Part shown: one piece after another, positions 20,932-27,840 of the stretch | Position numbering within the stretch: the first letter of the stretch is position 1 | How the letters are laid out: every line of letters begins with the position of its first letter | Origin: an uncultured Desulfovibrionaceae bacterium | Lineage (GTDB): Bacteria; Desulfobacterota; Desulfovibrionia; Desulfovibrionales; Desulfovibrionaceae | Reading direction: 5' to 3' | NCBI GenBank assembly: GCA_949741925.1 | Contig: CATJOY010000040.1 | Location: 1 to 60,098, forward strand | DNA: 60,098 nucleotides | The notes under the pieces: model-generated | Told to the model about the DNA's origin: nothing | What the model saw: only the letters and a program-made list of their open reading frames with translations | The model's database searches: none | Translations under genes and position numbers: made by a program

Positions 20932-22578
20932 CTATTGTACGCTTTTCAGGCAGGCGTCTACAATATCTTTGGCCTCTTCCTGAAGCCTGGTCAGATGATC
21001 CCGGCCTAAAAAACTTTCCGCATAAATTTTGTAGATATCTTCGGTGCCGGAGGGTCGGGCCGCGAACCAGCCGTTTTCGGTGACCACCTTCAGCCCGCCG
21101 ATGGGAGCGTTATTGCCCGGGGCGCGGGTTAGAATTGCAGTAATCTTTGAACCTGCCAGGTCTCGGGCCTTTACCGCTTCAGGCGAGAGCGCGGCCAGGG
21201 CCTTCTTTTGGGGGAGCGTCGCCGGGGCATCCATACGCTCGTAAACCGGCGCGCCAAAGCGCTCGGTCAGCATAGTGTACACTTCGGCCGGGTCCATGCC
21301 CAAACGGGCTGTCATTTCAGCGGCCAAAAGATCCATGATCAAGCCGTCTTTATCTGTGGTCCAAGCGCTGCCGTCCAGTTGCAGGAAGGAAGCCCCGGCG
21401 CTTTCCTCGCCGCCGAAGCCTGCCGCCCCCGAGAGAAGCGGTTCCACAAACCATTTAAAGCCCACAGGCACCTCGTAAAGCAGCCGCGAAAGAGAGGCCG
21501 CCACCCGGTCCACCATACTGCTGGTGACAAGGGTTTTGCCCACCCCGGCTTCACGCTTCCACCCTGCCCGATGCTGGAAGAGGTACCAGACGGCGGCAGC
21601 CAGATAGTGGTTAGGATTCATCAGGCCCGCAGGCGTGACAATGCCATGCCTGTCGGCATCTGGATCGTTGCCGAAGGCTAGATCAAAGTGCTTGGCGTTA
21701 TGCAGCAGGTTGGCCATGGCGTAGGAGGAGGAGCAATCCATACGGATTTTGCCGTCATGGTCCAGCGGCATGAAGCTGAAGTCAGGAGCCAGGGCCGGGT
21801 TGGTTACCTTGAGATCCAGGCCGTAGGTCTCCGCGATGGGCTCCCAGTAAGGCAAAGACGCGCCTCCCAGTGGATCAACCCCGAGGCGTAAGCCTGATCC
21901 GGCAATGGCTTCCATATTCAGCACCTTGGCCAGATCCCGCACGTAGGGCATGATGTAATCCGTAACCGTGACTTCACTACTCTTTAAGGCTTTGTCGTAA
22001 TCCAGACGTTTCACTCCGGCGAGATCTTCTGCCAAGAGTTCGTTGGCCCGCTGTTGGATCCAGGCTGTCACGTCGGTATCGGCCGGACCGCCATGGGGCG
22101 GGTTATATTTGAATCCGCCGTCCGAGGGAGGGTTATGCGAGGGGGTGATGACGATGCCATCCGCTTTGGCCCTGTGCCCGGCGGCGTTGTAACGCAAAAT
22201 AGCCCGAGAGATGACCGGGGTCGGCGTGGGCAGGCCGTTTTCCGATATATGCGCGGCCACATTGTTGGCTGCAAGCACTTCCAGGGCATCCCGGGCGGCC
22301 GGACCGGAAAGGGCATGGGTATCCGCGCCGAGATACAGCGGGCCTCCGATGCCTTGGGCTTTGCGGTACTCGCAGACCGCCTGCGTGATAGCCAGCACAT
22401 GGGAACGGGTAAAACTGCCGTCAAGACTTGTTCCCCGGTGGCCAGACGTGCCGAAACTGACCCGCTGGGCCGGGTTGCCTGTATCCGGCCGGATGGTTTC
22501 GTAGTCTTTCAGCAATGCCGGTATGGCAACCAAAGACGAAGCCGGGGCAGGATTGCCCGCGAGAGGATGCACAGCCAT
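20932..22578 (-). CDS. pgm: Phosphoglucomutase (alpha-D-glucose specific)
   Basis: Interconverts glucose 1-phosphate and glucose 6-phosphate for glycogen and cell-surface sugar synthesis. The 548-residue length and the N-terminal [11 protein letters not shown] motif are those of bacterial Pgm. The phosphoserine loop is [15 protein letters not shown], the magnesium loop [11 protein letters not shown], and the sugar loop [14 protein letters not shown] lies seven bases before the start. The response regulator follows closely. A large hairpin (22692-22746) sits in its upstream region. Confidence 0.95.
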
Positions 22579-23258
22579 GGCTTACCTCCAGATCAGAAAT
22601 TTCCGCCCTGTGGGGCTCTCAAGCGGTGCCGCAAAAGGACGAACACCGACCGACCGCGGCACAGCAGACCATATTTCCATTGCGTAAGGCGATGCCCCCC
22701 CTGAAACGAAATCGCGTTTCACCGTGAGGCGCTGCCGGGGGGGCATTGCCAAGATATTCCACTGTCGTAGTGTACCGGTTTGCCTCTCAAGGCACAAGTC
22801 TCTTCACGTAGCGGTTCATTCGGGGTGCGGGCTCTGCTCGCCCCCTGCTGGAAGCATGATTTCCCGGTCCCCGGCTGATGGTTCGGCCCGCAGCAATCAC
22901 CGTAGAGCGGGAGGTGAGGGGGGATTATTTCTCTATCGGAGGCGTGGGAGCGAGCAACCCCTCTCGTTTTTGCTCTGCCTCACGCTGCCGCGGCACCCGG
23001 ATATTCCGGCGGGTACCGGAGCCGTTCCGGGGCAACCGGAACCAGCTCGTAATATCGACGGACCGGCGGGAAATGTGTATGGTCGGGCCACGTGGTGAAG
23101 TATTCTTTGCGAAACGAGGGCCTTGCTCGGCTGCGCCTTGGTTATCGCGTTTCCTATGGCGGGCCGGAACGACGCGCGGTTGTCGGGCTTTTCCTGCTTG
23201 AGGCCTTGCCGCAAGCAAGCGGCAGACCGGATCGGCCGGCCGCTTTCCGGAGGTTTGC
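22579..23258. other. 680-base divergent gap between pgm and the HyfB-like gene
   Basis: No gene is supported; short open frames here lack ribosome sites and overlap each other. The pgm side holds a two-storey hairpin: ATGCCCCCCC (22692-22701) pairs exactly with 22737-22746, and inside it TGAAACG (22702-22708) pairs with 22715-22721. The rest shows nothing recognisable. Confidence 0.4.
22692..22746. other. Two-storey hairpin upstream of pgm
   Basis: A 10-bp perfect outer stem and a 7-bp perfect inner stem lie 114-168 bases upstream of the pgm start. It could be a leader structure, a terminator remnant, or an unrelated palindromic unit. No match to a known riboswitch was recognised. Confidence 0.4.
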
Positions 23259-24980
23259 GTGATTTTGCTGCTTGTCTCCCTCATCATCGCCGTTGTGGCA
23301 GCGTTGTTGCTGCGCGTGCAAAACGGCTCCCGCCTGCGACAAGAGGGCGGCATCGGTGAAGAGCCCCGTGTGCGCCGGGGCCATTCGATCTGTTTGGCGT
23401 GCCTGATTGGCGCGCCGCTGGCCGCGCTGCTGCCTGTAAGTCAGGCTGTCTCCCGGCGTCTTGGAGCTGCGCCGGCGGGCCTGCTTACCGGCGAGGAGCC
23501 CGGATTTCTGGATATTTTCAGGCTGATGATTCCTGATGTGGATCTTTTGCCTCTTGATTTCGGCCCGGCGCGCCTTTCGGTTGATGCTTCGGCGGCGCTT
23601 TTTTTGCTGCCGCTTCTTGTTCTGGCCGCTCTGGCTGCCCTGTACGCGGGGGCAGGCCCGCGGTTTTCCGCGCAAGAAGGCGGTAAAGGGTCCGCCGAGG
23701 GTTCCGGCGTTTCTTGTGACCTGTCCCCGTTCTTCCCGCTGTTCTATAGCGCGGTTCTCCTGTTTTTTGCCGCAGGCAACGGGCTTACCATGGCGGCCGG
23801 CGGGCTGGTCGCGCTCGTGTTGTTTCTCTTGTTGATCCGGCCTGTGGAAGCGCCTTTTGCAGCAGCCGGGCAGGGCCGGGAACTCCCTCCAGCTGCCGCT
23901 GCCTTTGCCGTGCCCGCGTTGGTATTGGGGCTGATCCGTGTCTTCCTTGTTGAGGCCTCGGCTCTGGAATTCGGCGGCGCGCTGTCCGGAGCCTGCATCG
24001 CCGCCTTTGCCGCCTGCGCTGTTTGTATCGGCGTGTGGCAAGGCAGCCGCGCCCCGGTCTTGTCTCTCTGCCTGCACTGGTGCTCTTTGGGGGCGGTGGG
24101 GCTCTGCGGTCTGTTTCTCGGCGCGGGACTGGTCCTTGGCGGACAGGGGCAGGGCGAAGCCGCTTTGTACACTATTACCGGCGCGGCACTGCTGGCCCTC
24201 AATCTGGCCCTGGTTCTCGGTCTACTCTATTTTTGCTGCGCTGCCCTTGAACAGGCGGGGTATCCGGCAGATGGAGACCGCCTCGGCGGGTGGTCTGAGG
24301 CGTGCAAAGTCCCGAAGGCGATGCGAGGTGACGGCTCCGGACCATGCGGGGGCCTGATGCGGGCCATGCCCGTTACTGCTGTCTGTTTCGGATTGGGAAC
24401 TTTGTCGCTTTCCCTGGTCCCGCCGCTGAACGGTTTTTGCGGTGTCTTTGCCGCCTTGGTCGCCCTGGCTGAGGGCGGCGCGGCCGCAGCAGCGGAAGGC
24501 GCGTTCCTCGCTATGCTCTTGGCCTGGGGCGTCCTTCTCGTGGCGGCCTCTGCGCCGGTTCTTTGCCTGCCGGGCCTGGTCCGCCGTTATGCCGCGATAT
24601 TCTTGGGGCCACCCCGGGGCGTTCCGGCTGGAATACGGCTTGATCCTCCGGCGGCCCGGCACTGGATTCTTGCCGCCCTTGCGCTAGCCTGCCTGGCCGC
24701 GGTGGCCTTTGCCCCGGATATCGTCGGCATTGTCGCGGCCGCCCTGGCCCTGCCCGCTGTCGGCGCGGGGGGCGCTTCGGCGGCGTTTGCGGCCGGCGGC
24801 AGCCCCGGTTCCTTTATCCCGCTGGATAACCGCGCCGCGGCGTTCACCGGCGAGCTGGCGCATCTTCCAGCCTCCTTTGCCATGCTCGGGCAGGCCCTGC
24901 TGGTTCTGGCCATGCTCGCGCTCTTGTTTTTTTTGCTCCGACGCAGGATGCTGCGCGACCGGGAGCTTGAATCCGACTGA
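23259..24980 (+). CDS. HyfB/HycC/NuoL-like membrane protein lacking proton-path residues
   Basis: A 573-residue polytopic protein resembling the antiporter-type subunits of hydrogenase-4, formate hydrogenlyase and complex I. Family landmarks remain: GGLMRAMPVTA near 364, VPPLNGF at 387-393, and an FLVEA...GALSG stretch near 229-243 where relatives have WLPEAHP...SALMSG. The charged residues that carry protons are missing: where relatives have LNHALFK the protein has LNLALVL (314-320), and the Lys/His helix before the WLPEAH loop is also neutral. The start is GTG with GGAGG six bases upstream. The NuoH-like gene follows 50 bases later. No hydrogenase or dehydrogenase subunit is nearby. Membership is fairly sure; function is not. 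Confidence 0.65.
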   Translation: MILLLVSLIIAVVAALLLRVQNGSRLRQEGGIGEEPRVRRGHSICLACLIGAPLAALLPVSQAVSRRLGAAPAGLLTGEEPGFLDIFRLMIPDVDLLPLDFGPARLSVDASAALFLLPLLVLAALAALYAGAGPRFSAQEGGKGSAEGSGVSCDLSPFFPLFYSAVLLFFAAGNGLTMAAGGLVALVLFLLLIRPVEAPFAAAGQGRELPPAAAAFAVPALVLGLIRVFLVEASALEFGGALSGACIAAFAACAVCIGVWQGSRAPVLSLCLHWCSLGAVGLCGLFLGAGLVLGGQGQGEAALYTITGAALLALNLALVLGLLYFCCAALEQAGYPADGDRLGGWSEACKVPKAMRGDGSGPCGGLMRAMPVTAVCFGLGTLSLSLVPPLNGFCGVFAALVALAEGGAAAAAEGAFLAMLLAWGVLLVAASAPVLCLPGLVRRYAAIFLGPPRGVPAGIRLDPPAARHWILAALALACLAAVAFAPDIVGIVAAALALPAVGAGGASAAFAAGGSPGSFIPLDNRAAAFTGELAHLPASFAMLGQALLVLAMLALLFFLLRRRMLRDRELESD

Positions 24981-25030
24981 GCCGTAACGTCCAAGACAGC
25001 GCCCGGTACATGTACACAAAAGGAGATGGC

Positions 25031-26068
25031 ATGGCGGTTATTCATGTTCTTCTGGCTCTGATCTTTGCTCCCCTGCTGGGGGGGCTCTTTGCCTGGTGCC
25101 GCTTTGTGGCTTCGGGCGGCAGCCTGGCCAAAGCGCCGTCCCTTATGGGCCGGTATGCGGCGCTGAAAGCGCTTTGTGCCAAAGGCACTGCCTATGGGCC
25201 GGAAATACAGCCCTACACCCCCATAGCGCCGCTGGCCGTGCTCAGTTGCTTGGTCACAGCCTTGTTTATGGTGCCTCTGGGCGGACAGCCGCCCCAATTG
25301 CACTTCACCGGCGACTTTCTGCTCCTGGCCGGGCTCCTTACCCTTGCCCGGCTGCTCGGCCTTCTCGCCGCCCTTGACGGGAGCCCTGTCTACAAGGCGC
25401 CGGGTGCATCTGCCTTTTGTGCCCGCGGCCTGCTAGCCGAACCGCTCCTGCTGTCCGTTTTTCTCGGTCTGGGCCTTGCGGCCGGGTCTTATTCCCTGTT
25501 CGGCATGGTCTCTCTTGCCGAGCTGCGGCTTTGGGAGGAAAACCGTCTGTGGCTGCTGCTGCCGGGCTGTGCCTTGTTCCTGATTGCCCTGGATGAAGAA
25601 TTTGAGTGCGGGGATTGCCGGCTGGTGGAGGTTGCTGCATCCCCGGGGGGGCCTTTGAAAGAGTCTCAGGCCCCGGGGGGAAAGAACATTATCGGCGTAA
25701 AACCCGGCGGGAGGCTGGCCAAGTTGGCCGCCAAAAAGGATGAACTTGAAGCCCGCTGGAATCGGGAACCGGTCGCGGTCAGCGCCAAAGGCGGCCTGGA
25801 TATGGGGATACGGGTTTACGGCGATTCCCTCAAGCTATGGATATACGCGGCCCTGCTGTGTTCTCTGGCGCCTCATACCCCGCAAAATCTTGATTTGGCC
25901 CTGGCCGGCGGGGTGGGCGGCATTTTTCTGGCCGCCATTGTTCTGGGGCTGGGGCGCGGGCTGGCCGCAAGATTCCCGGTCTTGACGCCGAACCTGCTTT
26001 TCAGCTTGTCCGGCATCTCCGCTTTGGTTTTCTGGGGGCTGGTATTTTGGATGCGGCACGCGGCTTGA
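25031..26068 (+). CDS. HyfC/HycD/NuoH-like membrane protein
   Basis: A 345-residue membrane protein of the complex I NuoH family, closest in layout to HycD/HyfC. It shares APLLGG at the start, LARLLGLLAALDGSP...GAS near 105-128 and LLAEPLLL near 135 with those proteins. The acidic quinone-cavity segment (E-x-x-K-x-P-F-D in HycD) is replaced by LDEEFECGD, and an inserted Gly/Lys-rich loop of about 60 residues follows. The start at 25031 has GGAG five bases upstream; an ATG seven codons earlier is also possible. With the preceding gene it forms a two-gene unit that lacks catalytic partners. It may be a structural remnant, or may join a complex encoded elsewhere. Confidence 0.65.
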   Translation: MAVIHVLLALIFAPLLGGLFAWCRFVASGGSLAKAPSLMGRYAALKALCAKGTAYGPEIQPYTPIAPLAVLSCLVTALFMVPLGGQPPQLHFTGDFLLLAGLLTLARLLGLLAALDGSPVYKAPGASAFCARGLLAEPLLLSVFLGLGLAAGSYSLFGMVSLAELRLWEENRLWLLLPGCALFLIALDEEFECGDCRLVEVAASPGGPLKESQAPGGKNIIGVKPGGRLAKLAAKKDELEARWNREPVAVSAKGGLDMGIRVYGDSLKLWIYAALLCSLAPHTPQNLDLALAGGVGGIFLAAIVLGLGRGLAARFPVLTPNLLFSLSGISALVFWGLVFWMRHAA

Positions 26069-26278: not shown

Positions 26279-26737
26279 TTAAAAGGGGTACGGCGTTTTT
26301 AGACTGACGTTTTCATATACCAGGAAGGTTTCGTTGGAGCTGATGCTTTCGGAATAGCGTTCAAGCATAACGTTGAAAAAATCTATGAATTCAAATTCTG
26401 GCGTCAGCATGACAGTGAGAATAAGGTCGTAGCGGCCGGTCACCATGGCTACGGAAATAACTCCCGGCAGGCGTCCCATGGCCTCAGCCGTTTTTTTCAT
26501 GGCCGGAGATTTGAGGCGCACGCCCACATAGGCCGTATGGTACCCCGGGCCGAGATCCCTGGTCGAAACCAGGGCCTTAATCTCGATAAGCCCGGATTCG
26601 ATCATGCGGCCCACCCGCGAGCGCACCGTGGCTTCGGAGAGGCCGACCTCCCGGCCTATTTCCTTAAAAGAGCGTCTACCGTTCTGAAGCAGGCGGAGTA
26701 TTTCGAGGGCCGTCTTATCCATGGTTCCTTTGCTCAT
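26279..26737 (-). CDS. Lrp/AsnC-family regulator
   Basis: A 152-residue regulator. Residues about 8-55 form the helix-turn-helix (FKEIGREVGLSEATVRSRVGRM) and residues about 65-150 the RAM ligand-binding domain (VISVAMVTGRYDLILTV). Its ATG overlaps the stop of lplA as ATGA, so translation is coupled; AGGAA precedes. As last gene of a glycine cleavage and lipoylation unit it may sense glycine or another amino acid and control the unit (inference). Confidence 0.92.
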   Translation of the reverse strand: MSKGTMDKTALEILRLLQNGRRSFKEIGREVGLSEATVRSRVGRMIESGLIEIKALVSTRDLGPGYHTAYVGVRLKSPAMKKTAEAMGRLPGVISVAMVTGRYDLILTVMLTPEFEFIDFFNVMLERYSESISSNETFLVYENVSLKTPYPF

Positions 26738-27840
26738 GCCGGTTCCTTGCACCCTTTCCCGAGGCCGGGATCTTGATTTTTGCCATCGCTGTTCTCGTGT
26801 TCTTCGGCCTGCTCATTGGTTGCCCCGCGCAGCCAGGCGAGAATTTCTTCTTTCTCTGCTTGGCCGTAGAAAATCCGCCTCATGTCAATATCCTGCCAAG
26901 CTGTGGCCCAGGCCTCGGGCGCATCGGCGGGCAGCCCCTTAAGTGCCTCCGCCAACTTTTCTACCGGAATTTGTTCGCCTGCGCCGCCTGGCGTTAAAAA
27001 ATCTCCGGTGATCGTTGCGGTGCGGATACGGTTTTTAGCCGTATCCAGGTGGAGCTCTAGCGAGCCGAAGGCAAAGCGCTTTTTGAGGACCAGGCTGCCC
27101 GGCGGCGCCTGCCCGATGTTCCAGGCCTTGGCGGCATATTTTTCCCGGGCCAGTCGGTGGGCGGCCTCGCGTATTTCTTCCGGCAGGGCAGAGGGATTGC
27201 CGCCGTAAGCCTTCTGGATACCGGCCCACAATTCCGGCAGTTCCAGGGCAAGGTACGGCTTCAAATTGGCCACCCGGGCCCGGAGCGAGGCCACGCCTTT
27301 ACTGCGGAATTTTTCCGGGTCCACCCGCAGGACTTTTTCCAGCATGGAGAGATCAACAGCAAAGAGCAAGGTTCCGTGCAACTGATATTTTCCCGGCAGA
27401 CGCCGTCCCGCTAATCCGGAAACTTTGGCCGGGAGCTGTCCCTCACGTTTTAGGGAAAGATCGTTTCGCCCTGCCATAACCACATCCAGACCTAAGCCCC
27501 TGAGATAGTGCAACAGCGGGGCCAGCAGCTCCTCGGGGCGAGGCTCTTCGCCCGCCTCCAAGGGGAGAATGAAGCTGAAATTGAGGTTGCCGTAATCGTG
27601 ATACACGGCCCCGCCGCCGGTCATGCGCCGGACCAGAGCAATATTGCGCCGGTCGAGTTCCGCCAGGTTGACTTCAGAGCGGGCATCCTGGTGGCGGCCG
27701 ATAATGACCGCCGGGCTGTTTTGCCAGAGCAGGAACCAACCCGGCTCCCCCGGCTGGACAGCCGCAAGCAACGCCTCTTCCACCGCCAGGTTGAAGGGCG
27801 GGTTTGTGGAGCCGGTTTCCAGGGGGAGCATTGCACGCAT
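26734..27840 (-). CDS. lplA: Lipoate-protein ligase A
   Basis: Activates lipoate with ATP and attaches it to lipoyl domains, here presumably GcvH. The 368-residue protein has the LplA core with LVRRMTGGGAVYHDYGN near residue 70 and the Lys of the lipoyl-AMP pocket in LPAKVSGLA. A C-terminal accessory domain spans about 250-345, and a charged tail ends the protein. It starts four bases after the lpdA stop and overlaps the Lrp gene by four bases. The N-terminal ATG is followed by a second ATG three codons later; either may be used. Confidence 0.92.
   Translation of the reverse strand: MRAMLPLETGSTNPPFNLAVEEALLAAVQPGEPGWFLLWQNSPAVIIGRHQDARSEVNLAELDRRNIALVRRMTGGGAVYHDYGNLNFSFILPLEAGEEPRPEELLAPLLHYLRGLGLDVVMAGRNDLSLKREGQLPAKVSGLAGRRLPGKYQLHGTLLFAVDLSMLEKVLRVDPEKFRSKGVASLRARVANLKPYLALELPELWAGIQKAYGGNPSALPEEIREAAHRLAREKYAAKAWNIGQAPPGSLVLKKRFAFGSLELHLDTAKNRIRTATITGDFLTPGGAGEQIPVEKLAEALKGLPADAPEAWATAWQDIDMRRIFYGQAEKEEILAWLRGATNEQAEEHENSDGKNQDPGLGKGCKEPA

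Follow-up and report, generated by a model that had tools for sequence, protein, structure and literature searches.

A diverged HyfB/HyfC-like membrane pair lacking docking segments and proton-path residues in a Desulfovibrionaceae genome

The window, i.e., the whole stretch of DNA that was analysed (60,098 nucleotides), was the entire contig C40 of a 2.79 Mb genome assembled in 109 contigs with 98% completeness. Two adjacent genes were located in the interior of this 60-kb contig, with unrelated genes on both sides. The genes and their ribosome sites, which were read from the sequence, are as follows:

23249–23253, forward strand: GGAGG ribosome site of the hyfB-like gene, 5 bases ahead of the GTG
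23259–24980, forward strand: hyfB-like gene, 573 amino acids, GTG start; antiporter-like subunit without the proton path and without the ND3-like C-terminus
25020–25025, forward strand: AAGGAG ribosome site of the hyfC-like gene, 5 bases ahead of the ATG at 25031
25031–26068, forward strand (ORF open from 25010): hyfC-like gene; NuoH/ND1-like subunit with its docking loops lost

Given the AAGGAG site, a start of the hyfC-like gene at 25031 appears more likely than one at 25010. Both frames were intact and had good ribosome sites, as described in the initial annotation, and the codon usage of the pair resembled that of the neighbouring genes. A phosphoglucomutase gene (pgm, 20932–22578, reverse strand) was divergent from the hyfB-like gene, and an Lrp/AsnC-type regulator gene (26279–26752, reverse strand) was convergent with the hyfC-like gene. 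Past the regulator gene were what we take to be a lipoate ligase gene and glycine-cleavage genes. No sigma-70-like promoter was found upstream of the hyfB-like gene, terminator-like sites were not above chance, and the Rfam search of the window, including the intergenic region 22579–23258, gave no match.

A same-genus genome (G001, 54% complete) had a hyfB-like gene cut to its first 105 codons by a contig end, beside pgm and with the same GGAGG-GTG start as in the window. Conserved neighbours in other genomes had been suggested as a check, and the pgm–hyfB adjacency did recur here for the gene start. An assembly artefact was rejected, since the frames were intact and hyfB was at the same place in G001. 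The fragment was related to the window copy with a Z value of 5.1 and to a normal HyfB (locus L040) with a Z value of 5.8. Extra residues between helices 1 and 2 were shared by the G001 and window proteins, unlike most relatives. A profile search for the remainder of hyfB and hyfC in this 54% complete genome found only complex I. The intergenic region before the hyfB-like gene was 680 bases in the window (22579–23258) versus approximately 240 in G001 (L116, 6429–6669).

According to sequence comparison, the first ORF is a diverged homologue of the antiporter-like HyfB/HycC, and the second ORF is one of the NuoH/ND1-like HyfC/HycD. The first ORF matched a profile built from 12 normal HyfB proteins in three stretches (E=4e-32, 97.6 bits, single-target search) and the NCBIfam hydrogenase 4 subunit B (E=4e-11). 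Its match to Pfam Proton_antipo_M was partial, with a score of 19, under the cut-off of 21.5. The second ORF matched subunit 4 of the formate hydrogenlyase (HycD of E. coli FHL) with E=4e-6, and its match to Pfam NADHdh was just at the cut-off. The landmarks VPPLNGF, LLAEPLLL and LAALDGSP that had been pointed out previously were all found in the translations. The adjacent HyfB- and HyfC-homologous membrane subunits of an Ehr/Hyf-type membrane complex were therefore present. Peptide scans with both proteins across 84,980 species genomes revealed no close relative. Among 149 genomes of relatives, 288 of the family and 395 of the phylum, the latter two sets being partly sampled, only ordinary HyfB and HyfC proteins were found, with at most 39% identity over the longer matches.

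The conserved charged and polar positions of HyfB (at least 90% conserved among 27 full HyfB proteins) were compared with the window protein. Seventeen of the 20 positions were changed or absent, and 3 were kept. The altered regions of the hyfB-like gene are given below:

23655–23921, forward strand: residues 133–221; nothing resembling HyfB profile positions 102–256 could be detected (89 residues for 155)
24192–24218, forward strand: residues 312–320; H371, H375 and K379 of L040 HyfB (H328, H332 and K336 of HycC) are replaced by L312, L316 and L320
24285–24347, forward strand: residues 343–363; hydrophilic insertion ahead of GGL, absent from relatives
24444–24446, forward strand: V396, replacing an invariant Glu (E434 in L040, E391 in HycC)

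The profile positions 102–256, which span approximately TM4–TM8 and include the TM5 Glu and TM7 Lys, had no recognisable counterpart in the window. The TM5 Glu, the TM7/8 Lys and His, and the TM12 Glu/Lys of a proton-carrying antiporter-like subunit (Proton_antipo_M) were missing. The initial annotation had reported neutral residues in place of charged ones, with LNLALVL at residues 314–320. This segment was found at that place, and the alignments agreed with the claim, including the HycC positions H328, H332, K336 and E391. Moreover, the protein stopped just short of the TWDCGY segment, and the entire ND3-like extension was missing.

In the HyfC-like protein, 15 of 26 conserved charged or polar positions were changed or absent by comparison with 26 full HyfC proteins. 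One replaced region was evident:

25598–25792, forward strand: hydrophilic stretch of unrelated sequence replacing the conserved ENCRIPVDDPNTHLELTMIHE loop of HyfC

This ND1/quinone-type loop motif, ENCRIPVDDPNTHLELTMIHE, was found in 45 of 45 other HyfC proteins and was absent from the window protein, in line with the earlier remark that the NuoH-like partner had lost its acidic quinone segment. The new loop contained ECGDC (window 25610–25640), a CxxC motif that relatives lack there and that may be due to chance. The conserved columns were kept in 22 of 26 membrane or periplasmic positions versus 16 of 50 in the cytoplasmic loops (Fisher p 2e-5), where the topology was derived from hydropathy and analogy to ND1 and the alignment within the replaced loop was uncertain. 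The buried charges D102, R114, D123, E144, E196 and K275 were also kept. Two segments that dock the soluble arm in an Ehr/Hyf-type complex, the ND1-type loop of HyfC and the ND3-like C-terminus of HyfB, were both absent. The losses thus fell on the docking face and on the proton path, whereas the membrane core of HyfC was retained.

The soluble arm was searched for in the window and in the whole genome. HyfG, HyfI and HyfF were not found in the window, and none were found in the genome beyond the complex I copies. The search with the Ehr large subunit returned only NuoD in this genome, and the same search gave E values of 1e-193 or better in three relatives. The pair aside, the large, small and antiporter-like subunits of the genome all belonged to complex I on contig C61. 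The soluble large and small subunits (HyfG and HyfI) of an Ehr/Hyf-type complex were thus missing, and the orphan status proposed for the pair held beyond its immediate surroundings, with no catalytic subunit nearby or in the genome except those of complex I. The complex I operon (L054, 7147–13906, contig C61) encoded four antiporter-like subunits (479, 558, 594 and 518 amino acids), one more than the usual three.

The soluble arm may lie outside the assembly or may have diverged too far to be detected. The division of the genome into 109 contigs at 98% completeness leaves room for this explanation. It is nevertheless very unlikely, because searches that were so sensitive in the relatives gave only complex I here, the pair was surrounded by unrelated genes well inside its contig, and the docking loops were also gone. 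Ion translocation may also persist in the pair, through displaced residues or as an addition to the complex I that the genome encodes. The sequence features in favour of this are the buried charges of HyfC. However, only 4 ionisable residues were found within the hydrophobic segments of HyfB, the TM5, TM7/8 and TM12 positions were lost, and complex I is already equipped with a NuoH and four antiporter-like subunits of its own. Persisting translocation is accordingly considered quite unlikely.

Genomes of the same family contained hyfB-hyfC-hyfE-hyfF-hyfG-hyfHI operons, in which HyfB and HyfC had normal key residues. These hydrogenase-4-like operons were located at L040 (4557–12339) and at the similar loci L039, L041–L053 and L055. 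The CxxC nickel-iron ligands were not found at the C-terminus of the 16 large subunits; 15 of the 16 ended in CNKSFNLSYCG.DL, and one was cut by a contig end. Judged by these sequences, the operons probably do not encode hydrogenases. The name energy-converting hydrogenase-related (Ehr) is used for such NiFe-less complexes (PMC6349859). Since the parent complex lacks the NiFe ligands, the term "hydrogenase" should be replaced by "hydrogenase-related". The CxxC ligands of a group 4 NiFe hydrogenase reside in the large subunit, which the pair does not have. In the HyfC tree, the nearest copies by path were those of genus g9 (G049 and G009); this placement was weakly supported because the window branch was so long. 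The pgm of G009 was 71% identical to that of the window. A full hydrogenase adjoining the genes in close relatives had been named as an observation that would speak against the orphan reading. A full operon does exist in relatives, but it is NiFe-less and its HyfB and HyfC are normal; it therefore shows the origin of the pair and does not refute the reading.

The divergence of the pair was large. The branch lengths were 8.67 changes per column for the window HyfC (median 0.32) and 5.68 for the window HyfB (median 0.43), which were 13–27 times the median. By rough counts against G009, dN/dS was 0.77/1.42 for hyfC and 0.82/1.65 for hyfB. The ratio was about 0.5 pairwise and about 0.6 when the window branch was isolated by subtraction, values that are an indication only because dS was near saturation and poorly aligned parts were included. 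For comparison, the ratio between G009 and G049 was 0.17–0.19, and that of pgm was 0.14. Neutral drift down to the identity seen in the pair was simulated in 30 runs for each gene, with no indels. Drift produced a mean of 15 and 6 stop codons (approximately 21 in total; minimum 6 and 2), whereas the pair had none. Furthermore, when stops were forbidden, drift left on average 4 of 14 hydrophobic segments in HyfB (maximum 9) and 3 of 9 in HyfC (maximum 6), whereas the window copies had 14 and 7. The absence of stops and the retained hydrophobic helices indicate that the pair is not free of selection. Selection on it is, however, far weaker than in relatives. The initial annotation had held that the genes are kept by selection; the stops and helices bear this out, but selection was clearly relaxed. 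A dN/dS near one, which it had named as contrary evidence, did not appear in the rough pairwise value, dS being near saturation.

The main rival to a retained function is that the pair is a decaying relic, drifting towards pseudogenes, with its frames intact only because the soluble arm was lost recently or because a damaged membrane protein would harm the cell. The long branches, the rise in dN/dS from about 0.18 to about 0.5, near the expectation for late decay, and the loss of nearly every catalytic feature are consistent with this. However, the same divergence without selection would have introduced the stops noted above and many frameshifts, the hydrophobic helices were retained far beyond drift, and the conserved membrane columns of HyfC were retained selectively. 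Decay is therefore a possibility to be taken seriously, but an unlikely one on balance.

The explanation that we moderately favour is that HyfB and HyfC are the surviving membrane arm of an Ehr-type NiFe-less complex whose soluble redox arm was lost, kept as a non-catalytic membrane pair. The parent Ehr-type hydrogenase-4-like complex would have lost its redox arm. The docking segments of both proteins and the proton-path residues of HyfB are gone, and despite the fast divergence the pair has retained its reading frames, its ribosome sites, an ordinary codon usage and its hydrophobic helices. The pair would then not be driven by a redox arm and would not pass protons along the usual path. HyfB and HyfC may still enter the inner membrane and associate there, and may be kept as a structural or accessory membrane complex that is non-catalytic. 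The pair is probably used by the cell for something besides redox-driven pumping, and may thus serve another task, as the initial annotation had proposed. A stronger statement, that a membrane arm of the complex I family, freed of its redox arm and without a proton path, is now a new non-translocating two-protein membrane complex, is put forward only tentatively. Single-sequence AlphaFold models of the two proteins had low confidence (pLDDT 44 and 46).

A modular origin is assumed for the relatives of complex I. If the favoured explanation is true, a membrane module that outlived its redox module, lost its docking surfaces along with the proton path and yet remained under selection would be a natural experiment that separates the folding needs of the membrane arm from its coupling needs, and may be a case in which such a module was recruited to a different role. 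If the pair is only in late decay, it shows a common stage of gene loss. An orphan pair of this kind was not described in the open-access papers searched, and a description may exist elsewhere.

The best PDB match was the arm of E. coli FHL, HycC/HycD (PDB 7z0s; PMC9474812), which is likewise a minimal pair of antiporter-like and ND1-like subunits. HycC, to which a NiFe hydrogenase docks, has E135, H328, K336, E391 and the ND3-like C-terminus, all of which are missing from the window pair, as is the hydrogenase. A loop of the ND3-like extension of HycC touches HycD and HycE (PMC9474812). The Ehr-type hyfB-C-E-F-G-HI operons resemble the pair in HyfB and HyfC homology over most of the length, in gene order and in the nearest HyfC-tree path. 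They differ in having all subunits and key residues, whereas the pair consists of two membrane subunits with the docking loops and the proton path lost. DabB resembles the pair as an antiporter-like protein that works without the complex I redox arm. The partner of DabB is DabA, and the proton path of DabB is believed to be in use, whereas the path is lost in the window pair.
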